From: Pezizomycotina sp. ARF18
Taxonomy: Eukaryota; Ascomycota
Assembly (NCBI GenBank): GCA_002224055.1
Contig: AZLU01000050.1
Coordinates: 167,089 to 231,088 of the forward strand
Reading direction: 5' to 3'
DNA: 64,000 nt
The notes beneath the pieces are model-generated. The model had not been told where the DNA came from, did not search any database, and was given only the letters and a program-made list of their open reading frames with translations. The position numbers and the translations under genes are program-made. How positions within the stretch are numbered: position 1 is the stretch's first letter; every line of letters begins with the position of its first letter. This document shows positions 2,915 through 61,109 of the stretch, in pieces.

Positions 2915-3724
2915 ATGAAAACAAACAAATCTTTAATTTATTCTTCGCTTTTTCTTAAGGACATTCGTAATTTTTCAAGTAATTCTAAAGACATATCTGA
3001 TATACGTTGACCAGAAGTTTTTGGAAAGAAAGGTCTTTTACTTGCATACTGTTTAGCTAAAGTTGGTTATATACAAAAAAGATTTAAAAGCACTAATATC
3101 AAAACATCAACTTGTACATCTTTAATTCCTTGAAGAGAAAATTTACCTATAAAATTTATTGCATTATCTAAATTTCAATATAATGTTATTGTAGGTCTAA
3201 TATTATCTGACGGGTGGGTAGGATTTTCATCTTCTCGTAGTAAAAACGCACGATTGGGATTCAAGCAATCAAAAGCTAAGTCTAGTTACGTTTTATTCGT
3301 GTTTAATATATTATCGAACTGTTGTTCTAGTTACCCTCGTTTAACTACAGGAAAAAATCCTGGTCTACAATTTTTTACTCGAGCATTACCTTGTTTTACT
3401 GAATTCCGTTCTTTATTTTACGTTGACAAGGTAAAAGTAATTCCAAATAATATTTATAATATCTTAACACCTGAAGCTTTAGCGCATATAATTATGGGAG
3501 ACGGAGCAGCACAAAAACACGGAATAACAATTTGTACTGACAGTTATCCTTTACCTGATGTAATTCGATTGATGAATGTGCTTATCATTCGATATAGATT
3601 AGATTGTATTTTACGAAAACATGGACAATATTATCGAATTTATATTCGCAATGGTTCTATGCCTTTATTACGATCAATTGTTACTCCTTATTTTCATAAT
3701 TCAATGTTATATAAATTACAGTAA
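2915..3724 (+). CDS. LAGLIDADG_2-type homing endonuclease
   Basis: 269-codon ORF from ATG. The first motif is in VGLILSDGW and the second in AHIIMGDGAA, followed by the family's usual RLMNVLIIRYRLDC and a MLYKL C-terminus. This is the LAGLIDADG_2 branch found in fungal group I introns. No frameshift is visible. Relatives at 24522, 30743 and 36516 share the same layout, so this element has spread repeatedly within this genome. It ends 10 bases before a 45-nt hairpin. Confidence 0.85.
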
Positions 3725-3733
3725 ATTATTTTT

Positions 3734-3778
3734 CGTCGGGTTATTAATAATTTTATTAAAAATTATTAATTACCCGCG
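3734..3778 (+). repeat. 45-nt hairpin element, copy A
   Basis: A 45-base GC-capped, AT-rich near-palindrome (starts cgtcggg, ends cccgcg) that folds into one long stem. Its exact reverse complement is at 6443-6487. It fuses directly to the second-motif codons of a LAGLIDADG fragment (gat ggt agt), so it has inserted in, or recombined at, coding DNA. Confidence 0.85.
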
Positions 3779-4206
3779 ATGGTAGTTTCTCTATTCAACA
3801 CACTAAAGTAGAAAGCGGAGCTAAAAAAAGAAAAATATCATGTAGATTGAGAATTGAACAAAGGATGATATATCTTAAAACTGGTGGTAATTACTTTAAT
3901 GTTTTAAACGAGATAGCTACATTTTTAGGTTGTAATCTTTTAACTAGAAAACAAAAATCTACAAATAATGAATATTATACTTTAGCAGCATCTAGTCGTA
4001 AATCTCTTTTAATTATTATAAACTATTTTGAAATGTTTCCTTTATATTCTTCTAAACATTTAGACTATTTAGATTGAAGTAAAGCAGCAAAATTAATTTT
4101 AAATGATCAACACTATACTGATCAAGGTATGATTGAAATAGACAGTTTGAAAAATAACATGAATTGTAATAGAAAAACCTTTAATTGAGATCACTTAAAT
4201 ATCTAG
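3778..4206 (+). pseudogene. LAGLIDADG endonuclease C-terminal fragment
   Basis: 142 codons open with TGA as Trp, beginning exactly at the second motif (DGSFSIQ) and ending in NWDHLNI. It corresponds to the C-terminal half of the ORFs at 311 and 1333 (CRLRIEQRM, SSKHLDYLDW). The N-terminal half and first motif are absent, replaced by the hairpin. The last 35 coding bases are repeated after the second hairpin near 6500. Confidence 0.8.
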
Positions 4207-4242
4207 GACTTAAATTTAGTATAAAGAGATGCAAACATAATA

Positions 4243-4790
4243 ATTCGCTACTAACTGCACATGAAAATCTTTTATTGAAGTCGTAATGAATACTGACTTC
4301 AATCATAGTTTTTAATTATAGGGTTATTCAAAGATAGGCTGATCACCTGGGAAATGTACAAGCAACTTTAGTGTTAATAACAAACTGGTGATTGAGCCTA
4401 AAACGATCTAACCTAAAAAAGGATTTATAATGGATAGAAATCTAAATAACTTTCCCGTTAATCTTTTTTTAATTATGTATTTTTGAAGGATCATATTAGT
4501 TTGTTTAAATTACACTCTAAAATGATTGGGATTGATGAAAAAAAAAATATTAATAACTTGATAACTGTTCCCGTTAACGGAAACTAGTAAAGGTTTTTAT
4601 AAAATAACATTTATATTTAGATACCTAAGTATTCATATAAAAATTATTATTAATAACATTCAAATTTGTAATTTTAATTGTATTAGTAATATATCTGCTG
4701 CTTAGCAGATAGCTTAACTAAAAATTTGAAGTTTATATTTAGGTCGTACATTTATAATTAAATTATAATATAATCGGCTTAGAAGGGTTA
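4243..4790 (+). repeat. duplicated atp8-upstream block, copy 1
   Basis: This block parallels 56970-57680: the same order of segments (gataggctgatcacctggg, gaaatctaaataactttccc, ggaaggatcatat, actctaaaatgatt) ending in the last codons and downstream sequence of atp8 (tttatatttaggtcgtac). Only the atp8 3' end is present here; the atp8 start is missing, so this is a partial duplicate feeding into the atp6 fragment that follows. A GC hairpin (gttcccgtt/aacggaaac) sits at 4567-4584. Confidence 0.75.
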
Positions 4791-4906: not shown

Positions 4907-5340
4907 ATTCTTATAGCCCTCAAGATCAAATAAAATATATAATTTTTGAGGTCTTTCCGCAATTAGTTAATATTCAATTCTTTTTAACTAATTGAGGAAT
5001 TTATTTAATTATAAGTTTCTTAATTGCTTTTATTTTAAATATATTAAGAAATATAATTATTAATAATTGATCTTGAATTCAAGAATCAATTTATGCTGTA
5101 ATAAAAAGTTAATTATAAATAAATTAAGTACTATTAAAGGTCAAATTATTTTTTCCTTTATATATTCTTTATTTATTTTTATATTTATAAAAAATTTTCT
5201 CGGTATGGAACATTATAGTTTTGCTTCAGTTTCTTATTTTATTTTAATTTTCTCACTTAGTTTTATTAAAATTTTAAATGTGATTAAAAGTCTCTTAATT
5301 GCTTTCATTTTAAATATATTAAGAAATAAGAATAAAACTT
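4907..5340 (+). pseudogene. atp6: atp6 fragment (ATP synthase subunit a), ectopic copy
   Basis: Translation gives recognisable subunit a segments: FLTNWGIYLIISFLIAF, then NNWSWIQESIYA, then after a frameshift near 5105 STIKGQIIFSFIYSLF and SFASVSYF. The matching sequence in the main locus is at 58284-59854. Here the reading frame breaks, the conserved GMVPYSFAST is degraded to GMEHYSFASV, and a second copy of the LLIAFILNILRN segment is pasted in at 5283-5330. The C-terminal half is absent. It is a pseudogene unless the two frames are joined by RNA editing or the break is a sequencing error. Confidence 0.75.
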
Positions 5341-6341
5341 CAAATAAAGCTTTAATTCCTTATCGGCATAGCCAAAGAGGGTTTTGCTTTGGGAGATATT
5401 CTAATGGTCAGAAATTGAGATTCTATTCTACTTCAGCTACTCAACAATCTCAGATAAAATTAGATCCTAACTGGATAACAGGGTTTGTAGACGGTGAGGG
5501 GTCATTCATGGTTTTTATAAAAAAAAATTTAAAATCTAAAATCGGTTGAAGTGTAGAAGCTAGATTTTCTATTGGTCTTCATGTAAAAGATTTAAATCTT
5601 TTAGAACTCCTGAAATCTTATTTCGGAGTTGGAAATATTCATAAACATGGTAAAGATGGAATTCAGTATCAAGTTACCTCTTTACAGGATTTAATTAAAA
5701 TTATTGATCACTTTAATAAATATCCTTTACTTACTCAAAAAAGGGCTGATTTTATTTTATGACAAAAAGTAATTGAACTAATTATAAATAAAGAACATTT
5801 AACAATTGAAGGTTTACAAAAATTTGTCGCTATTAAAGCTTCAATGAATTTAGGTTTATCCGATAAGTTAAAAGTAATCTTTCCTAACGTTATTCCTGTG
5901 GAAAGACCTTTAGTTGTAGACCAAAGGATTAAAGATCCAAATTGATTAGCTGGTTTTACTTCTGGTGAAGGTTGTTTTCAGATAAACACCAAAGTATCAG
6001 GTACTAGTCGCACTGGTTATCAAGTTCAATTAGTATTTTCAATTGGTCAACATATTCGTGATGAACAATTCATGAGAAATTTAATTTCTTTCTTCGAATG
6101 TGGTTATTATTTATCTCATAAAAATAAATTTTTTGGAGAGTTCATAATTACAAAATTTGAGGACTTAAATGATAAAGTTATTCCATTTTTCCAAAACAAT
6201 CCAATTCTTGGAGTTAAAGCTTTGGATTTTGCTGACTTCTGTAAAGTAGTAGAACTAATGAAAAATAAGGCTCATTTAACTAAAGAAGGATTGGATCAAA
6301 TTCGTCAAATAAAATCAGGTATGAATAAGGGAAGAGAGTAA
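5067..6341 (+). CDS. LAGLIDADG endonuclease fused to atp6 fragment
   Basis: One frame of 424 codons runs from the atp6 remnant straight into a complete double-motif LAGLIDADG protein: WITGFVDGEGSF near residue 138 and WLAGFTSGEGCF near residue 295, ending in GMNKGRE. The endonuclease has all conserved blocks (KRADF, LTIEGL, KALDFADF). It resembles the endonuclease in the atp6 intron at 60150-61085, so intron and flanking exon seem to have moved together. Fusion to upstream exon sequence is a normal expression mode for such ORFs. Confidence 0.85.
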
Positions 6342-6487: not shown

Positions 6488-7255
6488 ATTGTGGAATCAA
6501 AGAAAAACCTTTAATTGAGATCACTTAAATATCTTGCCACTTAAATTTAGAGATTTATTTAAAGAAGCTTAGGACGGGAGCTTCTTTAATGGTAAACCTA
6601 ATTACAGACCATTCCTTGAGTTGTAATTTATCTTTTAAGAAGTAGGGGTTCTCTTTGTAAGGTAAAACCAATATAAAGGGGATAGAGGGTGGCCTCTATC
6701 TAAGCTAAATCAAACTGTCATTGCTTGCCCTATAACCAATTTGGTATTCTTAGGGAGAGTCTATTTCAATTAAGATCACTTAAATAAATTATCTCTTTAT
6801 TTTTAATCACAATATTATACTACGTTTTTTAACAAAATGGGAATGCCATTGATAAGTGTAAATTTATCAATTATTACTACGCTGTATGCATAGAATCTCT
6901 CGAAGATGGAGTTAACACTCCAGTTAACAGATATGTAGACACCTAATTAGGATTTTTTTTATAATTTTAGGCCCTACGGCTAGTATAAATAAATCTTTAA
7001 AGTTGTATACTATGACTGAATTAGTAGTAATACTTACATATACATGGGAATAATATGCTGGAAACCAAAGTAATTAACATAATTTGTAATTGCGAGTAGG
7101 ATCCTTAGAGACTACACGCGAAGCCCCATGTTTTTATATGGGTGAAAACATAGTCCAGCCGGGTAGGAAACTACTTCTCTAGTTATTAAACATAAAAATT
7201 AATTTATTAGTTTATGGCTATAGGTTTTGCTTTATATTAAGCTAAATGGATAATG
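6488..7255 (+). other. 3' part of group I intron before cox1 exon
   Basis: No ORF. Bases 7049-7155 hold a typical fungal group I (IB-like) core: tgctggaaacc, then gtaggatccttagagacta as the R segment and catagtccag as the S segment. The intron ends near 7255, just before the cox1 AFPRLNN exon. A GC-richer stretch at 6580-6760 is structured but unassigned. Confidence 0.65.
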
Positions 7256-7360
7256 ATTCCCAAGACTAAATAATATTAGTTTCTGATTATTAATACCTAG
7301 CCTATTATTATTTGTATTTGGAAGTTGTATCGAAGACGGAGTGGGTACAGGGTGAACTCT
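7256..7360 (+). CDS. cox1: cox1 exon a (FPRLNN..GTGWTL)
   Basis: Encodes FPRLNNISFWLLIPSLLLFV and then FGSCIEDGVGTGWTL. The 3' border is set by joining act ct to t tac at 13936, giving TLYPPLAG, with T at the exon end and G at the intron end. The 5' border (7256 or 7257) is uncertain because the upstream exon is outside the window. Confidence 0.9.
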
Positions 7361-7487
7361 TTATCTAAGTAAGGAGTTGTTCATGAGTAATCATGAAGCA
7401 ATTAAATTCTTTTCAATGCGGGAACATCTTCAAGTGTTTTGTTTAATCGAAACACATGTTATAGACTACTCATGTCTAGACTATATT

Positions 7488-8027
7488 ATGTCAGGAATTC
7501 CTTTTATTCCTATAACATACGTAAAAATGTCTATTGCACGAAGACAATCTGCTTGAGTAGGTAATAAATGTTATTCTACTCATCAAGGACTCAACAAAGA
7601 ATATCTTAAAAATAATAAAGATATATTTGAACAATGATTAGTTGGTATGACTGATGGTGATGGATGTTTTTCTATTTATCATCAAAACGGGAAATGGACT
7701 TTAATTTATAAAATAGCTTTGAGTAGATATAGATTAGAATGTACATTACGAAATCATACACCTACTCAACCTAGAATTTATATTAAAGAACGTTCTATGC
7801 CATTACTAAGAACTATAGTAAGACCACATATATGTTCTTCTATGTTATATAAATTAGGTAAGAAAGTTGAATCTCGACATCAATATACTACTTTATCTAA
7901 CGAAGGTTGTTTTTATGTAAAAATAGCTAATATTGCTAACCAAAAAACTCCTAAAACTCAATGAGAGTTAAAATTAGTGGGATTAACAGATAGTGATGAA
8001 TTTGATTCTTTTAATGTTAAAAAATAA
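7488..8027 (+). CDS. chimeric LAGLIDADG ORF
   Basis: 179 codons from ATG. Residues 1-75 are the start of a known cox1/cob intron endonuclease type (SAWVGNKCYSTHQGLN, then WLVGMTDGDGCFSIYHQNGK with motif 1). From about residue 78 the sequence switches to the C-terminus of a LAGLIDADG_2 protein (SRYRLECTLRNH, RSMPLLRTIVRPH, SSMLYKLG), then GCFYVKIANIANQKTPKTQW. The second motif of either family is missing. A 37-bp direct repeat marks the chimera point. Unlikely to be an active endonuclease. Confidence 0.75.
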
Positions 8028-8800
8028 AGGGTGAGTTTGTTCTTAACTATAGTATTTCTCAGCCTTTTTATAATATAAGGTTACTTTACTATATAAAAAA
8101 GACTTTAGGTAATGGTAAAGTTTTAAAATTTGAAACTCAGCAAGTCTCTAGGTTTATAATTAATGATAGAAAGGTATTAAAAGAAATAATATTTCCTATT
8201 TTTGATAAATATTCTTTGTTAACTAGAAAATATTTTTCTTATCTACAATTTAAGAAAGCTTGAAGTATTTTAGAAAATAATAATTTTACTACAGAACAAA
8301 AAAACGAAGCTATAGAAAATTTACTTAATAATTCATTATCTAACAATTATGTTTCACCTGCTATATCTCATTTAAATGATAAGAGTAGTTATGAAACAAT
8401 AAAATCTGCTATTTCAATATATTGATTAGCAGGTTTCATTGAAGGTAAAGGTAATTTTGGAGTTTTATATGAGCAGGGTGTATTTATTATAGAATTTTCG
8501 ATTCGAACTAAAAGAGAGAAGGCTTTATTATATTTTATAAAACGTTTATTACATATGCCTAACAAAGTAATCCTTGAACAAAATGGGTTCTTGCTAAGAA
8601 CAAAACATTCTAGAGCCATTTCAAATATAATTGATGCTTTTTCATCTAAAGATTGTAAATTTAAGGGTATTAAATCACTTTATTTTAAATTATGAAAAAA
8701 AGCCTTTTATTATAAAAATATAAATTTTAAAAAAGTAGCAATAATATATAAAATTATGCTAAATTTACATAAAAAACACACTATATCTAAGTTACGATAA
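8028..8800 (+). pseudogene. displaced C-terminal part of LAGLIDADG ORF
   Basis: Continues, after the inserted segment, the gene begun at 7488: ISQPFYNIRLLYYIKKTLGN, INDRKVLKEIIFPIFDKYSL, then motif 2 WLAGFIEGKGNFGV and a basic tail. The acidic residue of motif 2 is changed (EGKG rather than EAEG). A second, better preserved version of the same region is at 12893-13602. It has no start of its own. Confidence 0.7.
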
Positions 8801-8837
8801 TGGACTTTAATTTATAAAATAGCTTCGAGTAGATATA
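8801..8837 (+). repeat. 37-bp direct repeat flanking the chimera
   Basis: tggactttaatttataaaat and the next 17 bases repeat 7695-7731 with one mismatch. The first copy lies exactly at the junction in the chimeric ORF. Confidence 0.8.
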
Positions 8838-8879
8838 ATTTTTTCTAATAAAAATAAGGGTTAATTAAGGAAGATAGTA

Positions 8880-10055
8880 AATAAAAGAAATCGATTTTTA
8901 TTTCGTAATTAGGATACTGTGGGTCCTCGACCCGCGGTTTGAGTAGTAATGATTTTATAAAAAAATAATTATGAGGGAAAGCGGAGGGGAAACTAAAATA
9001 ATTTTATGTAATACATACTTAAATTTCGCTCTGCGAAAGAAGTAATATTTTGTTCATATTATAATTCTCCCTACTTAAGGTTATTCTATTAGATAAACCC
9101 TTGGCTATAAAGTAATTTGGACTGAGAGTAAGTGGGATACTACACCTAAGAGTCAAATTTAATCGAGGGTTTTTTGATGTAGGGGTTGAATAATTTTTCT
9201 AATGGAAATTCTTTAACAAGGGGGACATCATTACCTCTAGGTAACCCAACGTGTCATATCTCAGGTTGGAACTGAAAAATTAATTTTGTTTATTCTTTGA
9301 CTTTAAAGAGTTTTGTTAGCTAAGGACTTATTTAGTGGAAAGCTTTAGGTAGGTACTCCAACGGAGCCTAGATGATTTTCCTAGGGCCGCGTGAGAAGGA
9401 GTATTAGTTTGGTGGATAACTGTTTCCGTTAACGGAAACAGTAATCCACATCCCAGTTATTATTAGGTGATGATAATCTGGGTCTCGATCAGACTAATTA
9501 ATGTCGCAATAAGAGAATAACGTTACAAATTAGTAACGTTAAGCCTAGAGTAGTGAGCTAGCGAGGGTTAACCTGCCCGCGGGAATCTCGATACTATTCG
9601 ACCTTTGATAAGGACAACCGGCCATGGCTTTATAATGTAATGTGAAGAGTCCTAGGGAGGGAAAGGTTAGGCAAACGGTGGAGAGCATGTTTGAATATCA
9701 GAAAATTAATTAGTTGAATGATTTGATATTTCGGGCTGCCGCGCAGTTTAACACATGAAAGACAAGGTAGAAAGAACTCGGCAACACAACCAAGTCATTA
9801 GTAAATCAAATGAACTGTCACTCTCCAAAGGAGGTCCTGATACATCAATAATTCCGCGCCGAACACCGTGTGAAGTAGGCTTGGAACGAGAGGAGGTCAG
9901 TGTTTTAGGCAAGCAGATGATCCCTGCTTTTGATGGGCGTCTACGCTTTATTCTATAATTCTTATACTGATTATTCTGAGGCGGTGTGTCGCGCCTTGGG
10001 TACCCGACGGCATGCCTTATCAAAGTTAAATGAAGGATGAATAATAAATAGTAAA
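8880..10055 (+). other. structured block, candidate group I core of a nested intron
   Basis: GC-rich for this genome and free of conserved protein. Bases 9470-9510 (tctcgatcagactaatt) and 9640-9655 (gaagagtcctagg) could pair as P7, and cccag..ctggg at 9447-9485 forms a stem, so I read this as the RNA part of an intron hosting the next ORF. The small ORFs on both strands at 9748-10125 show no family. A rRNA origin was considered because of aactcggcaa at 9776 but not supported. Confidence 0.35.
9420..9441 (+). repeat. 22-nt perfect palindrome
   Basis: ctgtttccgtt followed by its reverse complement. A diverged relative is at 4567-4584. Confidence 0.85.
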
Positions 10056-10978
10056 ATGATGAAAAAAATAAATAAATTGAACCCACATTTCGTTGGTACC
10101 CGGAATTTTTCGACTTCTGCAACAATCATAAAAATAAATCCCTTTTGAGTTACAGGATTTTGCGATGGTGAAGCTTGTTTTTTTGTATCTATTCAAAAAC
10201 ATTCAAGTTGTTCAATTGGTTGAAATATTCGTGCAGGGCTAAAAAAAGTTGGTAATTTACAGAACGTAAAATATTCAACCACTGGCGGAGCCTCTAATTC
10301 TAAAGGCCTTTCTATAATTTCAGTTAAAGTCTATAAAAATACTGATACTCAAAAGCTAGAAATCCTTGCAGAAAATAAAGGTAGATCAGGTATATACAAA
10401 TGAACAAACTTAGAAAATAATAATTGCTATATTGGAAGTTCTGTTAATTTATCTCGAAGATTTTCACAATATTACAATATTAATGTATTAACTAAGTTCA
10501 GAAAAAACAGTCTTATTCATAAAGCTCTTTTAAAGTATGGTTATTCCAAATTTAAGTTAGAAATTTTAGAATATTGTGATCGTAATGATGCAGTCAAAAG
10601 AGAACAATATTATATTAATCTCTTGAAACCGGAATACAATATTCTTAAAATAGCTGGCTCATCTTTAGGTTATAAACACACGAAAGAGAGCTTAGCTAAG
10701 ATGATAGGTAAAAAACTATCTGAAGAAACTAGGGCTAAGATGTCTAGTATTCGAACAGGAAAAAAACATACTGAAGAAACTATAGCTAAAATGAGCGCTG
10801 CAAAAAAAGATAAATGTCAATGAATGAAGTTATTGATATAAAAAATAATATTACAACTATATATGATTCTATAACAGCTGCTGCATTAGCTTTAAATATT
10901 AGAAAATCAACTATTGCTATTTATTTCGCTCGTAATCAGAAGCTTTATAAAAATCAATATATATTTAAAAAGTTGTAA
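10056..10978 (+). CDS. LAGLIDADG N-terminus interrupted by GIY-YIG gene 1
   Basis: The frame opens at ATG 10056 with a LAGLIDADG motif 1 (FWVTGFCDGEACFFV, residues 30-44) and after WNIRA passes, still in frame, into a GIY-YIG endonuclease: SGIYKWTNLENNNCYIGSS, then the NUMOD3-like repeats (SLGYKHTKESLAKM, KKLSEETRAKM, KHTEETIAKM). Near 10820 the frame shifts; the homologous C-terminus (ALALNIRKSTIAIYF to FKKL) continues at 10828-10978. The host LAGLIDADG sequence resumes at 10981 with QIGLHKRDK, exactly where the family continues after the break. Confidence 0.85.
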
Positions 10979-10980
10979 TC

Positions 10981-11961
10981 CAGCAAATTGGTTTACATAA
11001 AAGAGATAAAATTTTATTAGAACAAATAAAATCGTTTTTTGGTGTAGGTAAAATTTTCAAACAAGGTCTAAATGCTTATCAATATAGAGTTAGCTCTATT
11101 AATGATATAGTTAATGTAATAATACCTCTAAAAAGACTCTTCACTTGTGCTAGCATTTGAATGGGTTGTACTATCCTAACAATTGGCAGCAATAATAGCA
11201 GCTCAATCTTTTACAAATTATTTATTAATAACCTATTACATATTTTTACTAAAAGCTTTTGTACTGGAAATAATAATATAAACCCAGTAGTGGTATATGC
11301 CAATGCTGATATTCAAAAGCTTGATATATTACGAGAGAATAAAAATAAAAGCGGAATTTATCGGTGAATTATTAAAGAGACAGGTAAATCTTATGTGGGT
11401 TCTGCTATTGATTTATCTAAAAGATTTCGTATCTATTATTCTCTGCTTAGTATTGAAAAAATTTTAAGTAAATCTAAAAGCCGCATTCTTAGTGCTATAT
11501 TAAAATATGGTTATTCTAAATTTACTCTTGAAATCCTTGAGTATTGTGATCCTAAGGATTTAATAAAACGTGAACAATATTACATAGATTTATTAAAACC
11601 TGAATATAATATTTTAAAAACAGCTGGTTCACGATTAGGAAGTCTACACACAATAGAAACTCTAGCTAAAATGTCTAGTTCTAAAGCAGGTAAAAATTTA
11701 TCTGAAGAAACTCGAGCTAAGATATCTAGTTCTCTAGTAGGGGAAAAAAATCCAAGGTTCGGGAAAACAAGACCTGAAAGGGCTGGAATACCTTCTCAAA
11801 AAATCGAAGTTATTGATATTAAAAATAATACAACAACTATATATAATTCTATATCGTTGGCTGCATTAGCTTTAGATATTAAACAATCTCGAATTTCTAT
11901 GTTTTTTAGCCGAAATCAAAAGAGCCCTTACCAAGGTAGATATATTTTCAAAAAAATATAG
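10981..11961 (+). CDS. LAGLIDADG middle part interrupted by GIY-YIG gene 2
   Basis: Residues 1-46 are the internal part of the same LAGLIDADG protein (QIGLHKRDKILLEQIKSFFG, YRVSSINDIVNVIIP). At IIPL the host stops and, in the same frame, a second GIY-YIG protein follows: SGIYRWIIKETGKSYVGSA, LKYGYSKFTLEILEYC, REQYYIDLLKPEYNILK, NUMOD3 repeats and a helix-turn-helix-like tail (ALDIKQSRISMFF). It ends at a TAG. GIY-YIG 1 and 2 are paralogues; copies are also at 23279 and 26043. Confidence 0.85.
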
Positions 11962-12095
11962 ATAAGCTTATTATTAACAGAGATCGCTTTTTGTTAGGGT
12001 TAGAAGAGGTTGTTATTCATTAATTTTATCAGGAATTATAATAGACTTTATAGATGTTTGTTTTTTATGTACCAAAGACATAACTATTTGTTTTT

Positions 12096-12740
12096 ATGTA
12101 TCAAAGACATCCCTCGTACCCGTTAATATCTCAAAAACGTGCAGATTTTGATTTATTTAAACAAGTTGCATATATAATTAGTCAAAAAAAGCATGTAACC
12201 ATCAAAGGCTTACAAGAAATTTTAAATCTAAAAGCCTCGATGAATATGGGAATATCAGATACATTAAATGCAGCCTTTCCAAAAATTAAACCTGTAGATA
12301 GACCAATAGTTCAATTTTCAGCAATACCTGACCCTAACTGATTAGCAGGATTTGTTGACGCTGAAGGCTGTTTTATGATTAAAATTTCTAAATCTTCTAC
12401 GCACAGTTTAGGAGTTAGTGTTAGATTAAACTTTACTATAAATCAACATTCTCGTGATGCTGAATTAATAAAAGGTTTAATAGAATATTTAGGTTGTGGA
12501 AATTATTATCCAAATTTAAGCTTACCTCAAGTAGAATTTCGTGTATCAACACTAACTGACATAGATAAAATTATTTTATTTTTTGATAAATATAATCTGA
12601 TTAGTGCTAAATTAATGGATTATAAAGATTTTAACCAAGCGGTAAAGTTAATAAAAAACAAAGCTCATTTAACAGAAGAAGGTCTTAAAGAGCTTCTTAT
12701 CATAAAAGCAGGAATGAATAAAGGTAGATTAAACGATTAA
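12096..12740 (+). CDS. LAGLIDADG C-terminal part, continuation
   Basis: Open frame of 214 codons that resumes the host protein at YPLISQKRADFDLFK, the residues that normally follow IIPxFDK. Motif 2 is WLAGFVDAEGCF, and the C-terminus is AHLTEEGLKE..GMNKGRL. With 10056-10147 and 10981-11128 it adds up to one complete LAGLIDADG protein. The 130 bases before it hold a 20-bp tandem duplication (tttatgtaccaaagacat). Confidence 0.85.
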
Positions 12741-12892
12741 TCTGTTATTCTTCATGAATCTTTTATTTAGAGTAGGTGAAATAGTATTGGCTAAACCAAA
12801 AATCTTTTGATCCCCAAAAGATATATGAGGATAAGAAGAATTTATAAAAAGGATAATAATTTATAAGATTTAAAGCCTCCTTATACCACCCC

Positions 12893-13602
12893 TAAGAGCG
12901 CTTTATTTTATTAAAGCCCAATTAGGTGTTGGAACTGTTACTAAAGATAATTCAAAAGGACAAATATTGATTAGGGATAGAAAAACACTTGAAAAGGTTA
13001 TATTTCCTATATTTGATAAATATCCTCTCTTGACTAGTAAATATTTTAATTATGAAAAACTTAAAAAAGCATTTTTTATATTAGAAGATAAGAATCTTAC
13101 AAGGGATCAAAAAAATCAAAAACTTTTTGAATTAAAAAATAAATCAATTCCTGAAAATTATATATCTCCTAGTTGAAACAATATAAATTTAAAAGATATA
13201 AAAGATGTTTCTGGAATAATGACTAAATCTTGATTAGTTGGGTTTATCGAAGCCGAAGGAAGTTTTTATTTAACCTTCAAAGATTCTACTAGAATAGTTC
13301 ATGGATTTGGATTAACCCAAAAATTAGATAAAATTTTTTTGGAAGGTATTAAATTAATACTTCATATACCAACTTCTATTAGATATAAATCAAAACATAA
13401 TCATTATATTCTAGACACTACTAATTCTAGGGCTATTGAAAATATTATAAAGTTTTTCCATAACACAATGAAAGGTATGAAATCCTTTGAATATAAAATA
13501 TGAGTTAAATCTTATAATAAATATAAAGGAGATTACGAAAAACTATCTAAGGCTAGAGATACTCTCAGAAAAATTAAAACTAGATTATTAGAAATAACTT
13601 AA
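12893..13602 (+). CDS. LAGLIDADG C-terminal half of the intron 1 founder ORF
   Basis: Begins RALYFIKAQLGVGTVTKD, keeps motif 2 (SWLVGFIEAEGSFYL) and the family tail (HGFGLTQKLD, NTMKGMKSFEYKIW). It is the natural continuation of the ORF that starts at 7488, now 5 kb away. No start codon of its own. Confidence 0.75.
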
Positions 13603-13935
13603 TATTTTGATTATTAGAAATAACTTAATATTTTGATTATTAAAAAATAAGAGTGGATATTTTAGGTCAACATTTATTTAATTTTTTCTAGAAAACCCGT
13701 ATAGTTAACTGTACGGATCCTTAGCAATAGGAATTAAGGAGAAGAATAATTAATATTTAAAGCCTTACTTTACTATCTTCCTTATTAACCTCCGTTTTTA
13801 TAAAAAATTTTTAATTGTTCAAAATTAATTAAAATATATCAATTTAAGATAATAGTATAGTCTATTCAATAAAGAGATTTATTGAGTGTAACGATATTTT
13901 TAATTATGAGATAAAATGAGGTTACCAATATAAAG

Positions 13936-14093
13936 TTACCCACCTTTAGCCGGAATTCAAAGTCACAGTGGAGCAAGTATAGATTTAGCTATTTTTGGTC
14001 TACATCTAGCAGGAATTAGTTCTCTTCTTGGTGCTATGAACTTCATTACAACTGTTTTAAATATGAGAAGCCCAGGTATTAGATTGCATAAAT
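13936..14093 (+). CDS. cox1: cox1 exon b ([14 protein letters not shown])
   Basis: Encodes [20 protein letters not shown], then [20 protein letters not shown] and [12 protein letters not shown]. The 5' border follows G13935. The 3' border is taken at the T of cat aaa t. Confidence 0.9.
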
Positions 14094-14259
14094 GCTGTAG
14101 TTTCACACTAATTTGTGCGTAAGAGCCAAATTCCGGGAACACCTTAAAGCTCTAGTAACCAAAGTATTAGGAGAAACTCTGAGACTGGCCCTACTAATAA
14201 CTAGGGGTAAGGTAATATCACTAGAGATAGAAAATAGGTTATCGCGGATCTAAATGTTA

Positions 14260-15498: not shown

Positions 15499-15720
15499 AT
15501 AGTATAGAATAATTATACATCTAGACCTCATCTGAACTCTTTTGTATATAATACAAAGAATAAAAAGATAGATAAGTCTTTATGTGATTTATTGGAAAAA
15601 AGGTATAGCTTTACATTAAAGATATCACCTTCATATAGCTAATTATCATGAAACTTATTATTATCTTAGTAATACTAGGTCTTATTTGATAAATGTCTAT
15701 ATTTTGTGGAACGAAATTAG

Positions 15721-15788
15721 TTTTATTTGGTTGAGCTGTTATTGTTACAGCTGTTTTATTATTACTATCATTACCTGTACTCGCGGGT
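15721..15788 (+). CDS. cox1: cox1 exon c (LFGWAVIVTA..VLAG)
   Basis: Encodes LFGWAVIVTAVLLLLSLPVL and AG, a transmembrane helix of subunit 1. Ends at T of ggt. The frame continues into the intron ORF. Confidence 0.9.
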
Positions 15789-16757
15789 AGGCTTTATAGT
15801 TCTTCGGCTTTAAATTGTAATAAAATTTCTTTATCTTCTGCCTTGGCATTCAAGGAGTTACAAATCAAACTAAATCCTTACTGAATAACCGGGTTTGTAG
15901 ATGGTGAGGGTTCATTTATGGTGAATATCAGTAATAGTTCAAAATATAATACAGGTTGAAAGGTAGAAGCTATATTTTCAATAGGTCTTCATAAAAAAGA
16001 TCGAATGATATTGGAACTTATTCAAAAATTTTTTGGTGTGGGTAATATTTATTCGCACGAGAATGGAGTTCAATATATGGTATCTTCAATAAAGGATTTA
16101 ACCAATGTAATTATTCCTTTTTTTGATAAATATTCTCTTATTACTCAGAAGCGTGCTGATTTTGAGTTATTCAAAAGAGTCATTTTAATGATAAGTCGCA
16201 AAGAACATTTAACAATCGAAGGTTTACAACAAATAGTTAATATCAGAGCGACAATTAATCGAGGTCTTACAGATGTATTAAAAAAAGCTTTTCCTAAAAC
16301 TATTCCTTTTCAGAGACCTTTAGTTGAAGTTCCCAAAACCTTTGATCCTAATTGAGTAGCTGGTTTCATAAGCGCGGAAGGATGTTTTTTAATTGAAATT
16401 TCTCCATCAAAAACGAAATTAGGAAAAGCAGTAAAATTAGTATTTTCAATTAGTCAACATTCTCGGGATAGAGAGTTGATGAAAAATTTTATTTCTTATT
16501 TCGGATGTGGTTATTATGTTTCTCGTAATAATAAAGATTTCTCCGTGGATGAATTCAGAGTAAAAAAATTTTCTGATTTAATTAATATCATCATTCCATT
16601 TTTGGAAAAATATCCAATTATTGGTGAAAAGGTTAAAGATTTTGAGGATTTTAAACAAGTTTCTTTTTTAATGAAAAAAAAGGCTCATTTGACCCTTGAA
16701 GGATTAAAAAAAATTTATCAAATAAAAATGCGGATGATTACTAGAAGAAAAATCTAA
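15721..16757 (+). CDS. LAGLIDADG endonuclease read through from cox1 exon c
   Basis: The exon frame continues uninterrupted for 344 codons. After a linker come WITGFVDGEGSFMV, FFGVGNIYSHENG, KRADFELFK, motif 2 WVAGFISAEGCFLI and the C-terminus KKAHLTLEGLKK. Exon-fused endonuclease/maturase reading frames are the classic fungal cox1 arrangement. All motifs look intact. Confidence 0.88.
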
Positions 16758-40550: not shown

Positions 40551-40570
40551 AAATAGAACATGATAGTAAA

Positions 40571-40897
40571 AAAGCTCGAGATAAGATATCTAGTTCAAAC
40601 GCAAGAGAAAAACACCCAATGTTTGGTAAGCTACATAGTGAAAAACCTCGAGCTAAGATGTCTAGCACTAAAACAGGGAAAAACTATCTGAAAAACACTA
40701 GAGCTAAACAGGCAGCTGCACAAAAAGATAAATGTCAAAAAATAGAGGTGAAGGATCTGACTCTAAATCAAACAACTATCTATGATTCTATCCGGGCAGC
40801 TGGTCAAGCTTTAGATATCAACCTAGCTCGAATTTCTGTTTATTTTAAACGAAATCAAAAGTGTCCGGCAGAGATATTTTCAAAAAAGTGTAAATAG
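40571..40897 (+). pseudogene. GIY-YIG C-terminal fragment
   Basis: NUMOD3 repeats (MFGKLHSEKPRAKMSSTKTG) and the tail IYDSIRAAGQALDINLARIS; nuclease domain absent. It begins about 20 bases after the tRNA. Confidence 0.75.
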
Positions 40898-41145
40898 CTT
40901 ATTTTTAACAGAGAATAAATCGCTTTTTTCCCTTTTGGGGAGAAGAGGGTTATTATTTTACGCGGGGAGGGGTGTAAGATAAAATAGGTTAATCTACACT
41001 ATCATATTTTGTATACTTAAGGTATGATAAAATGCGAGTATGGTAACAGACTGGTTCTGAGCTTATATATTTTTATTTACTTAAAAAAGGATTAAAAACA
41101 GGATAAAGCTTTATATTTTCTACTTAGCTAGATTTCTTGGATTAA

Positions 41146-41255
41146 TGTAAAGTGACAAAACTAATAGAAAATAAAGCTCACTTGACTTCAGAAGGTTTAA
41201 AAGAAATTCGTCTAATCAAAATGAGAATGAACAAAGGAAAAAAAAATAGTTGAAA
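41146..41255 (+). pseudogene. LAGLIDADG C-terminal fragment
   Basis: KLIENKAHLTSEGLKEIRLI then KMRMNKGKK, the conserved end of the family, with no upstream domain. Confidence 0.65.
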
Positions 41256-42585: not shown

Positions 42586-44455
42586 GTGCGACAAGAAGCG
42601 GATATTAGTAATGTGGTGTAATCCCACTTGGTTATTTCTCTACCTAACACTACCTACACATGCCAGTCAGTAATGTAAGGTGTGAAGCTGTAGGGACAAT
42701 GTAGCCTGTTTTAAATAACAATGTAAATATATTTCATATTTTCAGGAGCTAGTGTAAGTAAGACATGGAGAGCGAAAGTCAAGATAGCAAAGACGCTTCG
42801 TTACACTATTAATTAACAAGGAAGGTAATAGATTTGACATGCTAATCTATTAGAGAAACCAAATTTCCTTCGGAGTAAAGCTATCCTCCTAAATCTTACG
42901 TAAATTGTGCTAATATTTGAACTTGGTAAGCCCTTTATCTTCAGCAGTAAATTACAAACTAAATAGATAATATATTTATCATAAATTTAATAATTATCTT
43001 TAGCCATTTGTAATTATTGAAGAGGCAACATATAAGGTAACACTAAAAATGTTAAATAGTTACACGAAATTGTTGTAATAGATAAAGGGTAAAGGAATAG
43101 TTAAAAAGCAAATGCCTAATTCTAGATTTCGATTGAAGTAAATCTGGGTTATGGATAAAGATATTATATAAATCATTATTTCATATTTAAATCATTATTT
43201 CATATTTAAATCTTAAGCAAACAGTTGATTGAGTTAATACAGTTGTAGCTAAACCAGTTTTAATTACTTTTTGCGTTTGTTTAATTTTTTAAAATTTCAA
43301 TAATATAACATCATGATGAAAAACAACAACAACAACAACAACATTTTAAATTCTTGAGCTATTACCGGTTTAATGGATGCAGAAGGTTATTTTGGGGTAC
43401 AGACTACGAAGGATAATTCACGTAAATTAGGTTATGTTATAACTGCCTCCGTAGAAATGGCTTTAAATTTTAAAGATAAAGTATTATTAGACAAATTGAA
43501 AGCAACTTTAGGCGTAGGTAACATTTATTATAATTCTTCTGATAGAACATATAAATGAAAGGTTTCTGATATTAACCAAATATTTAATGTAATTATCCCG
43601 CACTTTACAACTTTTTACTTAATGACGCAAAAACGAGCCGATTTTGAATTATTTAAACAAATAATTGAAATCATCAAGAGTAAAAAGCATCTTACTGCTG
43701 AAGGTTTACAAGAAATTGTAAATTTAAAAGCCTCTTTAAATCTTGGTTTATCTGACAGTCTAAGAGCATCTTTTCCTAACACTGTTACAATGCCAAGACC
43801 AAAAGTGGACTTCAAAGAAATTCCTGATCCTAATTGATTATCTGGTTTTGCAGAAGGTGAAGCTTGTTTTTTTGTTAGCATTTATAATTCCTTAAAATCG
43901 AAATTAGGCTTAGCTGTACAATTAGTTTTTAAAATTACGCAACATTCTCGCGACGAAGAGCTGCTTAAAAGTATTGTAAAATATTTGGGTTGTGGTAGAA
44001 TAGAAAAACGTAAAAAAGAAGCTTGTGATTTTACAGTTAATTCTTTAAAGGATTTTGAAGAAAAAATTATACCTTTTTTTGAAAAATATCCTCTGCAAGG
44101 TTCAAAATTGTTAAACTTTTTAGATTTTAATAGAGTAGTTGAAATAATGAAAGTTAAAGGTCATTTGACAAAGGAAGGTTTGATGTTAATCAAAGAAATC
44201 AAATCAAATATGAATACTGGTAGACAAGAATAATGTATATAATATCTTCATCGTTGCGTGTTATTAAAAATAAGCGTAAAGATGGCAGACTTAACTAAGG
44301 TGGAAACTAATAAAGTATACATTAATAAGTTACTTTGTTTGCAGCGATGGCTGCTAGGTAAATAACCAAAGATTTCTGCTTGAGCCGTGTGCGGGGAAAC
44401 TCGCACGCACGGTTCTTAGAGGGGAAAGTTCGAGAGGACCTACCTATCTCAACTA
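42586..44455 (+). other. group II intron in rns
   Basis: Starts gtgcgac (GUGYG consensus) after gaagtat and ends near 44455 after domain V (gagccgtgtgcg, loop gaaa, cgcacgcacggttc, 44382-44415) and a domain VI stem. It splits the rRNA just before ttaattcgatg (E. coli region 950). It encodes a LAGLIDADG protein rather than a reverse transcriptase; this subclass is known from fungal rRNA genes. Confidence 0.88.
43313..44233 (+). CDS. LAGLIDADG endonuclease of the rns group II intron
   Basis: 306 codons from ATG with an Asn-rich start. Motif 1 ITGLMDAEGYFGVQ, FNVIIPHFTTF, KRADFELFK, motif 2 WLSGFAEGEACFFVS, tail KVKGHLTKEGLMLI..NMNTGRQE. No breaks. It lies in domain III/IV of the intron. The only family member here housed by a group II RNA. 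Confidence 0.9.
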
Positions 44456-51560: not shown

Positions 51561-51815
51561 AAAGCATTCTGATGAAACTCGTAAAAATATCAGGAAAAAA
51601 ATTAGGGAAACCAACTTCCTCTCTTAAGAGAGGAAGTGGAAGACCTTATTAAAAAATCGAAGTAATTGATATTAAAAATAATATAATAACTAGATATGAT
51701 TCTGTAACGTGAGCCAAATTAGCTTTAAATATTGGAAAATCAATTATTCCTAAGTATTTAGCTCGTAATGATCAAAAGTTTTATAAAAATCAATATGCCT
51801 TTAAAAAGTTGTAAT
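51545..51815 (+). pseudogene. GIY-YIG C-terminal fragment
   Basis: Matches 23935-24190 (aaaaagcattctgatgaaac, aaatcgaagtaattgat, caatatgcctttaaaaagtt). The 24-nt palindrome at 51614-51637 replaces the bases for RPEGG. Confidence 0.8.
51614..51637 (+). repeat. 24-nt perfect palindrome
   Basis: acttcctctctt followed by its reverse complement. Relatives at 46798, 52587 and 61994. Confidence 0.92.
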
Positions 51816-51889
51816 CTAAGGGGCGGATTCCTTCTAATTATTTTAAATTTAAAATATTTTTAAATTTAATAAAAATAAGATAAAAACTG

Positions 51890-52665
51890 GTTGAGGGGTT
51901 CAATTATCATTTTCAATTGGTCTTCATAAAAAATCGAGCTATCTTGGTACTAATTGAATCTTATTTTGGGCTAAGTAATATATATAAACGAACTGAAGAC
52001 TGCAGTTTTGAGTTACTTCTTTACAGGATTTTATTAAAATGATTAATTTTAATAAATATCCTTCAGAAAAAGCTGATTTTTAACTTTTTCAAATGGCTAT
52101 TCTCATAATTAATTGTAAAGAACATTTAACCATGGAAGGATTACAAAAAATTGTTGCGATTAAAGCTTCAATAAATTTAAGTTTCTCGCCTGCGGAAATA
52201 CCTTAATATTATACTGTTCCAAGATCTTTAAAGAGCCCAATACCTTTGATCCTAATTGAGTAGCTGGATTTACTACCGGTGAAGGTTGTTTTTTCATTGA
52301 TATATTTAAATCGAAAACCGCAAAGCACGGAGAAAAAGTAAAATTAAAATTTCAAATAACTCAACATACTCGTGATGAGCAATTAATGAAAAGTTTAGTT
52401 TCTTATTTCGGATGTGGTCGTTATGCTAATTTTAATAATAAAAATAACGGAGATTTCATAGTTACAAATTTTGAGAACATTACTGAGATCATTATTTCAT
52501 TCTTTGAAAAATCGTAGGAGTTAAAGCTTTAGATTTCGCTAATTGATGTGAAGCAGTAAAGCTAATGGAGAAAAAGGTACATTTAACCACTTCCTCTTTT
52601 AAGAGAGGAAGTGGATCAAATAAAAAAAAATCAAAGTTAGAATGAATCGAGGGAGAAAATAAGCA
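51890..52665 (+). pseudogene. LAGLIDADG endonuclease, broken
   Basis: TGWGVQLSFSIGLHKK, several breaks before 52250, then DPNWVAGFTTGEGCFFIDIF, ITQHTRDEQLMKSLVSYFGC, and a final break at 52515. The palindrome at 52587-52614 sits after catttaa, at the same place as in 46570-46865. Confidence 0.75.
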
Positions 52666-59404: not shown

Positions 59405-59854
59405 TTTTATTTATTTGTATGATAAATTTGATTATGTGATATTAGCTAATATGCAATTTTCTTTAACTAATATAGGATTTATTTAATTATAAGTCTCTTA
59501 ATTGCTTTCATTTTAATATATTTAGGAAATAATAATAATAATATAATTTCAAATAATTGATCTATAAATCAAGAATCAATTTATGCAACAATGAATAATT
59601 TAGTTATAAATCAAATAAGCGCTATTAAAGGTCAAATTTATTTTCCCTTTATATATTCTTTATTTATTTTTATACTTATAAATAATTTACTCGGAATGGT
59701 ACCTTATAGTTTTGCTTCAACTTCCCATGTTATTTTAACTTTCTCACTTAGTTTTACTATAGTTTTAGGTGCAACAATATTAGGTTTCCAAACTCATGGT
59801 CTTAAATTCTTTTCTCTTTTTGTGCCCGCTGGATGTCCTCTTGCTTTACTTCCT
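59405..59854 (+). CDS. atp6: atp6 main exon
   Basis: FSLTNIG, LIAFILIYLGN, NNWSINQESIYATMNNLVIN, IKGQIYFPFIYSLFIFILIN, NLLGMVPYSFASTSHVILTF, VLGATILGFQTHGLKFFSLF, VPAGCPLALLP. A one-base deletion near 59473 breaks the link with the upstream residues. Ends ctt cct|, joined to tta tta gta at 61110 for LLPLLVCIEF. Confidence 0.85.
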
Positions 59855-61109
59855 TTAAAGTTATTTGGTAAATTACTAATGAGGGATCAACTATCAAACT
59901 CTAGAAACACCCTAAAGCTTTCGATACCAAGCTTTATCCGAAAGGTTATAAGTGGATGAATTAATAACTCATGTAAGGTAAAAAGTCAAAAGATAAAGGA
60001 AACTGAAATGGGCTATCGCGGATCTAAATCATTAAATGTAAAAGAACAACGAGTAAACGGTAGTTTATACAAAGTATTCTTAAGATGTACTCTAACGGGT
60101 TTCGAAAGAAATTATCCAATCAAAATCCTTTCTAAACAAATAAATAAATTAAGATTTAATTCTTCCTTAGCTTTCGTTAATCCAAAAATTAAACTAAATC
60201 CTTATTTTGTTACTGGCTTTATAGATGGTGAAGGTTCATTCATGATTATTATTAGGAAAAACCCGAAATTTAAGATTGGATGAGAGGTTATAGTAATTTT
60301 TCAAATTGGTCTTCATCAAAAGATAGAGCAATCTTGGAACTCATTAAATTATATTTTGGAGTAGGTAATATTTATAAACAAGGTAAAGACAATGTTCAGT
60401 ATAGAGTAACCTCACTACGAGATTTAACTAATGTAATTATTCCTCATTTTGATAAATACCTATTAATAACTCAGAAACGTGCTGATTTTGAATTATTAAA
60501 ACTAGCTGTAAATCTAATGAATAGTAAAAAACATTTAACAATAGAAGGATTACATAAAATAATTGCGATTAAAGCTGCAATTAATTTAGGTTTATCGGAT
60601 GAATTAAAGTTAGCTTTCCAGGTATTATAGCAATTAAGAAACCTTAGTTAAAAATCAAAAAATCCTTGATCCTTATTGATTGGCTGGGTTTGCCAGTGCT
60701 GAAGGTAATTTCATGGTTAATATAAAAAGCTCACTAGAAGTAATACAGGATTTCAAGTATTATAGATTTAAACTTACCCAACATTTTAGAGATGATATTT
60801 TAATGAAAAGTATAGTAGAATATTGGGGATGTGGTCATGTTTACAATGACCGTGAGACTGTAGAGTTCATAGTTACAAAATATAATGACTTGATAGATAA
60901 AATCATTCCGTTCTTCGATAAATATCCTATTATAGGGGTTAAAGTATTAGATTTTTCAGATTTCAAAAGAGTTGCTGAGATAATGAAAAATGGTGATCAT
61001 TTAACTTCTGAAGGATTAGATTTAATACGTCAAATCAAAACGGGTATGAATAGAGGTAGAAATTCAAGTCTTAAATTTATTTATTTGCATGATAAATTTG
61101 ATTGCAGTG
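59855..61109 (+). other. atp6 group I intron with LAGLIDADG ORF
   Basis: actctagaaacaccctaaagc, atcgcggatctaaatc, aaagaacaacgagtaaacgg, aagatgtactctaac at 59892-60105. Ends at G61109. Confidence 0.8.
60150..61090 (+). pseudogene. LAGLIDADG endonuclease in atp6 intron, frameshifted
   Basis: NPYFVTGFIDGEGSFMIIIR, a shift near 60310, FGVGNIYKQGKDNVQYRV, KRADFELLK, a shift near 60620, DPYWLAGFASAEGNFMVNI, FDKYPIIGVKVLDFSDF, HLTSEGLDLIRQIKTGMNRG. The first frame is open back through the intron core to 60008. Related to the gene at 5067-6341. Confidence 0.8.

Follow-up and report, generated by a model that had tools for sequence, protein, structure and literature searches.

Two GIY-YIG genes nested in one LAGLIDADG gene between cox1 exons of Pezizomycotina sp. 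ARF18, probably as successive near-bare insertions

A homing endonuclease cuts a site that its gene does not yet occupy, and the gene is copied in as the cut is repaired. The invasion of one homing gene by another is a process already reported in fungi, and the closest cases known to us are cited here. In cox1 intron 1 of Sclerotinia borealis, a GIY-YIG segment of ~750 bp lies in frame inside the resident homing-endonuclease open reading frame (ORF), and in cox1 intron 8 the homing-endonuclease ORF is disrupted by three insertions, with LAGLIDADG_1 domains marked in the legend (PMC4162613). Annulohypoxylon stygium nad5-i3 carries a GIY-YIG element in a LAGLIDADG_2 coding region, with 13 bp lost, and other isolates are without the element (PMC6140425). 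In the mitochondrial DNA (mtDNA) of Glomus sp. (atp6, atp9, cox2, nad3) and in Allomyces, endonuclease ORFs are found in genes, not introns (PMC3630166), and LAGLIDADG ORFs such as mS1247 are interrupted by group II introns (PMC8393795). Here we describe a locus in a 64,000-nucleotide stretch of Pezizomycotina sp. ARF18 (contig AZLU01000050.1, positions 167,089 to 231,088; the whole stretch is called the window, and coordinates are counted from its first letter), in which one LAGLIDADG_1 gene lying between two cox1 exons is divided into pieces A, B and C by two inserts, each holding a GIY-YIG gene (GIY1 and GIY2).

Each system resembles the ARF18 locus in some respects and differs in others. 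The host ORF of S. borealis intron 1 is itself GIY-YIG, whereas the host here is LAGLIDADG (PMC4162613). A. stygium has one insert, described as a 1,500-bp intron, in a gene of the LAGLIDADG_2 type, and here there are two inserts (PMC6140425). Leptographium sp. WIN(M)1376 cox1-212 is likewise a homing gene in a homing gene with an in-frame fusion, but it is the mirror image, a LAGLIDADG gene that entered a GIY-YIG gene with a partial group IB intron carried along (PMC10448965). The Glomus atp6 insert is in phase with the invaded gene, like the frame of insert 1; the Glomus and Allomyces ORFs, however, enter respiratory genes and bring a replacement C-terminus, whereas inserts 1 and 2 come without a duplicated LAGLIDADG end (PMC3630166). 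The mS1247 type is, as here, a LAGLIDADG gene within an intron interrupted by another mobile element, but there splicing of the inner ribozyme rebuilds the gene, whereas here the inner element is a gene and no ribozyme was recognised (PMC8393795). Our search, which covered mainly open-access literature, turned up no LAGLIDADG gene described as holding two successive bare GIY-YIG genes, and we do not claim priority.

The order of the parts is A, insert 1, B, insert 2, C, all on one strand and with the three pieces collinear:

10056..10235, + strand: LAGLIDADG piece A, from the start codon through the first LAGLIDADG motif up to ...GWNIRA (model, paralogue, Pfam)
10236..10977, + strand: insert 1, 742 nt, GIY-YIG gene 1 (GIY1) with NUMOD3, then NUMOD1 after a one-base frameshift (Pfam)
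10978..11130, + strand: LAGLIDADG piece B, (I)QQIGLHKRDK...VNVIIP (model, paralogue, Pfam)
11131..12113, + strand: insert 2, ~983 nt, intact GIY-YIG gene 2 (GIY2) and a 3' tail of ~150 nt (Pfam)
~12114..12740, + strand: LAGLIDADG piece C, YPLISQKRADF..., with the second motif, to ...GMNKGRLND (model, paralogue, Pfam)

We judge, with a probability of roughly 0.8, that the inserts are successive near-bare insertions of GIY-YIG genes into a LAGLIDADG_1 gene of a cox1 intron and not spliced introns.

An earlier reading of the sequence alone (the sequence-only reading) had proposed three collinear LAGLIDADG pieces around two GIY-YIG genes, and comparisons with a paralogue, a family model and Pfam all agree with this. 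A 294-position LAGLIDADG model derived from 11 other sequences was matched by piece A at positions 2-39 (i-E-value 7.7e-10), by piece B at 37-86 (6.4e-13) and by piece C at 89-293 (7.7e-83). Aligned with the uninterrupted paralogue at 15693-16754, the pieces correspond to residues 58-93, 94-142 and 147-348, with a gap of 0 residues between A and B and of ~4 between B and C, and alignment with five uninterrupted paralogues of the window gave the same tiling. The homologue is thus covered end to end without overlap or conflict, and no LAGLIDADG segment of the host is duplicated: B picks up where A ends, and C where B ends. In Pfam, the frame holding A matched LAGLIDADG_1 positions 2-28 (E 4e-4, at 21.6 bits just below the curated cut-off of 23.1), B positions 31-80 (E 2.3e-8) and C positions 1-102 (E 3.7e-30). 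Read in order, the pieces make up two LAGLIDADG_1 domains and a full-length double-motif gene (model positions 2-293).

The intact paralogue at 15693-16754 matches a variant of I-OnuI (6uwj) with an E of 1e-84 over 59-348, and the A-B-C gene is, by predicted protein, a double-motif LAGLIDADG_1 homing endonuclease of the I-OnuI-like family. Both motifs have the acidic residue (GFCDGEACF in A, GFVDAEGCF in C), the E of which we take to be the catalytic acid in each, and the pieces contain neither stop codons nor frameshifts. In its present arrangement the gene would no longer be readable as one protein and is presumably inactivated.

Insert 1 consists almost wholly of coding sequence. Pfam recognised a GIY-YIG domain (1.5e-12), NUMOD3 (3.7e-12) and NUMOD1 (1.7e-6) in GIY1, the last of these in another frame following the loss or gain of register by one base at ~10821-10826, between NUMOD3 and NUMOD1; because of this frameshift, GIY1 itself appears to be starting to decay. 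The model matches of GIY1 extend from 10320 to 10975, and the last base of the GIY1 stop codon (10976-10978) is also the first of piece B, so that there is no room on the 3' side for an intron core. Sequence outside the GIY-YIG gene amounts to a 5' leader of ~84 nt, in frame with GIY1, and to nothing at the 3' end. Junction 1 (10235/10978) is clean at the codon level, and exact removal of the insert keeps the residue count of the family. The frame of GIY1 is continuous with piece A and has no in-frame ATG of its own before the catalytic domain, so that its translation would have to begin either at the start codon of piece A or at an alternative one. Among the length-preserving registers scanned, with exon ends from 10215 to 10261, none of the group I U...G type coincides with the protein junction: the one U...G register found has an exon end that falls 14 nt into the insert, and the one GU...AY register is situated 17 nt ahead of the junction.

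GIY2 is intact. Its ORF runs without a frameshift to 11958, with the stop at 11959-11961, and contains GIY-YIG (1.9e-9), NUMOD3 (1.5e-10) and NUMOD1 (7.3e-5) matches, so that it still looks able to encode an enzyme. That each GIY-YIG frame continues the LAGLIDADG piece before it, as previously proposed, is true of both genes, but GIY2 has an ATG of its own at 11161, close to the onset of its similarity to a third GIY-YIG gene of the window (GIY3, at 23.4-24.2 kb), which weakens the case for a fusion. The breaks had also been called clean; this applies to junction 1 and not to junction 2, where about 4 host residues were lost or replaced and piece C resumes near 12114. Part of the tail of insert 2 aligns with the tail of another GIY-YIG copy near 40.9 kb, and the mobile unit may therefore slightly exceed the gene. 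With this tail, the ~4 residues lost, and 13 frame-restoring U...G combinations in the scanned range, insert 2 is a weaker bare-gene case than insert 1.

The two GIY-YIG genes, proposed to be paralogues of each other, are indeed related, with about 66% DNA identity over 738 columns (about 64-78% over the shared parts among GIY1, GIY2 and GIY3), but they are not each other's closest relatives. We constructed a GIY-YIG tree of 49 rows from the window and 17 loci, from which shorter GIY fragments were excluded by length (handles beginning with L denote loci from IMG/VR contigs with many LAGLIDADG and GIY-YIG genes). In this tree the sister of GIY2 is GIY3, with support of 100/99 from a bootstrap that had not settled, and GIY1 groups with two other rows at 87/89, one of them with a very long branch. 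Because GIY2 is sister to GIY3 and not to GIY1, the two genes probably entered separately, and a tandem duplication of one GIY gene was rejected on the same ground. A GIY lineage specialised on LAGLIDADG genes was considered as well and found unsupported, since the nested state is not the trait of one lineage. With nested labels on 5 rows, omitting the second GIY gene of L065 and the one shared by L021 and L023, 4 changes on the tree were required and 74 of 500 shuffles did as well; with labels on 7 rows, one near-identical allele copy being left unlabelled, there were 6 changes, and 142 of 500 shuffles were as low.

A parallel case provides an empty site. L021 and L023 are two metagenome alleles of the same cob-containing stretch of fungal mtDNA, and the two flanks of the first insert of L021 are 98.8% (758 nt) and 99.1% (2143 nt) identical between them. 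In L023 the LAGLIDADG gene is split by a GIY-YIG gene into two parts, which match residues 1-163 and 171-282 of a relative found in L066. The gene is divided further in L021, into three collinear pieces (1-44, 49-163 and 171-282) separated by two GIY-carrying inserts, the first of which, 1902 nt long, is absent from L023, so that its empty site is known. This insert is taken up by a single open frame of 620 amino acids (1863 nt including the stop, or 98%) encoding a complete LAGLIDADG plus GIY-YIG protein, and Rfam recognised no intron in it at E<=1. Between the end of its stop and the right junction there are 8 nt, and 11 bases present in L023 are missing, a loss comparable to the 13 bp of A. 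stygium (PMC6140425). For the insert common to both alleles, LAGLIDADG similarity in L023 breaks off at 1223 and is picked up again at 2184; the stop codon of the GIY gene (2165-2167) lies 16 nt short of that point. The alleles also show a second presence/absence difference, of about 1.24 kb in the cob region (L021 7853-9096 against L023 3005).

No close allele of the A-B-C gene itself was found in the searched loci. Among the 14 best matches of piece C that were listed (loci L017-L023), the longest-covering ones were at most 49% identical, and one segment of 105 amino acids reached 50%. A genome contig search for relatives gave none, and neither did a first viral-contig scan with an intact LAGLIDADG protein of the window.

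To count breaks of this kind, we used the window and 24 of 113 loci, chosen for carrying these genes and in some cases sharing one contig. GIY-carrying breaks with LAGLIDADG sequence continuing on both sides numbered six, in four genes, two of them broken twice: those of inserts 1 and 2, that of GIY3, that of L065, and the two of L021, one of which is shared with L023. The L021/L023 breaks were recognised by means of the allele pair and its relative, not through the 294-position model. Of the six breaks, five are in the first LAGLIDADG domain, and the second domain holds one, that shared by L021 and L023. As detection was uneven, we draw no conclusion from this distribution. Other neighbourhoods of GIY-YIG and LAGLIDADG genes (e.g. 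L052, L063, L067) were left uncounted because the model positions were not cleanly continued. In L019/L064 and L020/L067, GIY-YIG and LAGLIDADG genes, several of them partial, follow one another head to tail, and the window has two more remnants (40553-41247 and 51637-52603) in which the tail of a GIY-YIG gene lies ahead of a later part of a LAGLIDADG gene.

Two of these genes have RNA-like sequence at the break. A degenerate LAGLIDADG gene of the window (21904-22196/24271-24471) has both an RNA-like folded stretch (near 22.4-23.2 kb) and GIY3 between its parts. Its counterpart in L065, with 85% identity over 26 residues and 69% over 67, is broken by a group-I-like RNA stretch, not recognised by Rfam at E<=1, and then two GIY genes (2917-4785); each of the two genes is uninterrupted at the position where the other is broken. 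The L065 break lies almost at the protein position of insert 1, after W-x-V/I-x-A/T. A shared target site was considered here and kept as a lead at most, given that such a coincidence is not rare among six breaks and that the site DNA looks different.

Our preferred reading is that a LAGLIDADG_1 gene in a cox1 intron was invaded twice, on separate occasions, by GIY-YIG genes that did not bring a self-splicing intron. Each GIY-YIG gene would probably have entered at a double-strand break whose repair copied the incoming gene, with none or few of the host bases lost at entry. Insert 1 would have taken over the LAGLIDADG reading frame and probably its start codon too, and could then be translated as a fusion with piece A. 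GIY1 and GIY2 would have come from different sources to two sites, and the LAGLIDADG function would have ended with their arrival.

Alternatively, each GIY-YIG gene might ride on a small group I intron whose splicing restores the LAGLIDADG frame, in a twintron-like nest. We consider this unlikely, although several observations fit it and so weigh against near-bare insertion. Pieces A, B and C lack stops and frameshifts, as splicing would likewise predict, and they keep the acidic residue of both motifs; the break at junction 1 is exact at the codon level. In-frame U...G registers are available for insert 2 and, if three family residues are dropped, for insert 1 (exon end 10232, intron end 10983), which makes splicing of insert 1 unlikely rather than excluded. 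The ~150-nt tail of insert 2, being partly shared, may hold an intron remnant, and RNA-like stretches also precede GIY genes in the related breaks of L065 and near 22.4-23.2 kb; as L065 suggests, intron-borne insertion into LAGLIDADG genes may occur too. The parallel case also has its limits: L021/L023 is not an allele of the A-B-C gene, and the first insert of L021 is a LAGLIDADG-GIY frame and not a lone GIY gene. Moreover, the first ATG of that frame is at 4053, with none before the first LAGLIDADG motif, so that counting from the LAGLIDADG domain to the stop covers only 88% of the insert.

Searches for an intron core agreed with the earlier statement that neither insert contains a clear one, and they are insensitive, so that their negatives are weak. 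Rfam recognised no intron in either insert or in the surrounding region, and as a control it detected a single group I intron over the first 40 kb (E<=1) despite 11 gaps between cox1 exon matches. The GACTA..TAGTC pair of P7 is absent from both inserts in a scan that found it in 4 of the 11 gaps but not in the 7365-13936 host stretch itself. The argument from space in insert 1 is the stronger one: its conserved NUMOD1 tail and the stop codon extend right up to the 3' junction, which would force the second half of a core into conserved coding sequence. In addition, the filled allele of L021 is without 11 host bases, a loss that splicing could not repair. Of the two possibilities that the sequence-only reading had set out, genes on small introns or mobile genes invading mobile genes without introns, the lack of 3' space in insert 1 and the empty site of the L021/L023 pair favour the second, with insert 2 less clear.

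It is also conceivable that the three pieces stem from different LAGLIDADG genes joined by recombination, so that no single gene was ever split. LAGLIDADG and GIY-YIG fragments abound in the window, and placement of the short pieces A and B among the paralogues is not firm, leaving their lineage less firmly fixed than their position. However, the pieces tile one protein on one strand with gaps of 0 and ~4 residues, whereas a patchwork would be expected to overlap or skip, and we regard this explanation as very improbable. An assembly artefact of a repeat-rich mitochondrial genome, suggested by the many GIY-YIG and LAGLIDADG copies, is hardly credible when GIY1, GIY2 and GIY3 are too different in DNA sequence for easy confusion and the same kind of nest occurs on independent contigs.

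The content of the window is that of fungal mtDNA, with a G+C of 27%, TGA read as Trp, tRNAs and small-subunit rRNA. Using a typed cox1 consensus as the tblastn query, we observed cox1 exon matches across 7257-39487. Two further features frame the split gene:

7365..13936, + strand: stretch between two cox1 exons (...GTGWTLY / YPPLAG...), containing the whole finding (tblastn, exon matches 7257-7364 and 13937-14104)
8838..10040, + strand: GC-richer, folded non-coding stretch directly 5' of piece A (sequence, folding energy)

The end of the exon matched at 13937-14104 was read by eye near 14097. The minimum free energy of 8800-10055 is -343 kcal/mol, a value obtained without a shuffle control; Rfam gave no intron match for 8838-10040 at E<=10, and a guessed intron type found no support there, nor did a guessed group II D5 in 12735-12900.

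Within the same stretch, a further LAGLIDADG frame is fused to the cox1 exon (7254-7731). This frame apparently ends near 7731, with sequence of its family apparently taken up again near 12874 (12874-13602); if it is indeed broken in this way, the finding would sit within yet another broken homing gene. A second copy of the latter part of the cox1-fused gene is present at 8021-8797 (39% identity over 225 amino acids). A 38-bp direct repeat (97%; 7694-7731 and 8800-8837) flanks about 1.07 kb, which includes this second copy and, by our own reading, a fragment resembling another LAGLIDADG family.

Elsewhere in the window, we read 5067-6338 as the fusion of a LAGLIDADG gene with degenerate atp6-like sequence, which looks like host-gene sequence carried along, and 59471-61060 as a fuller atp6-like frame, likewise with LAGLIDADG. 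The segment 51443-51595 lies ~12 kb beyond the final cox1 exon match and may be similar to the beginning of cox1, on a weak tblastn match (41%, E 0.21). A LAGLIDADG gene at 43304-44230 falls within the small-subunit rRNA matches and is flanked by group II matches at 42628 (D1-D4) and 44380.

The ARF18 locus exemplifies a process known from other fungi, and its first insertion is unusually clean. Tentatively, and with more doubt than belief, we raise the broader idea that LAGLIDADG genes might be a regular landing place for GIY-YIG genes in intron-rich fungal mtDNA. The GIY-YIG genes would then act as hyperparasites: their entry would be near-bare, the start and frame of the host would be usable, and they would be shielded from purging because the broken gene is itself dispensable.

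Homing genes are thought to go through invasion, decay and loss. Invasion by another homing gene is one way in which a homing gene can die, and a homing gene that is dispensable may be a safe home for a second one. At this locus a single gene has received two homing genes, one of them by a nearly exact insertion of the gene alone, and together with the L021/L023 pair it offers defined empty and filled sites for asking whether GIY-YIG enzymes move without an intron and which targets they cut.

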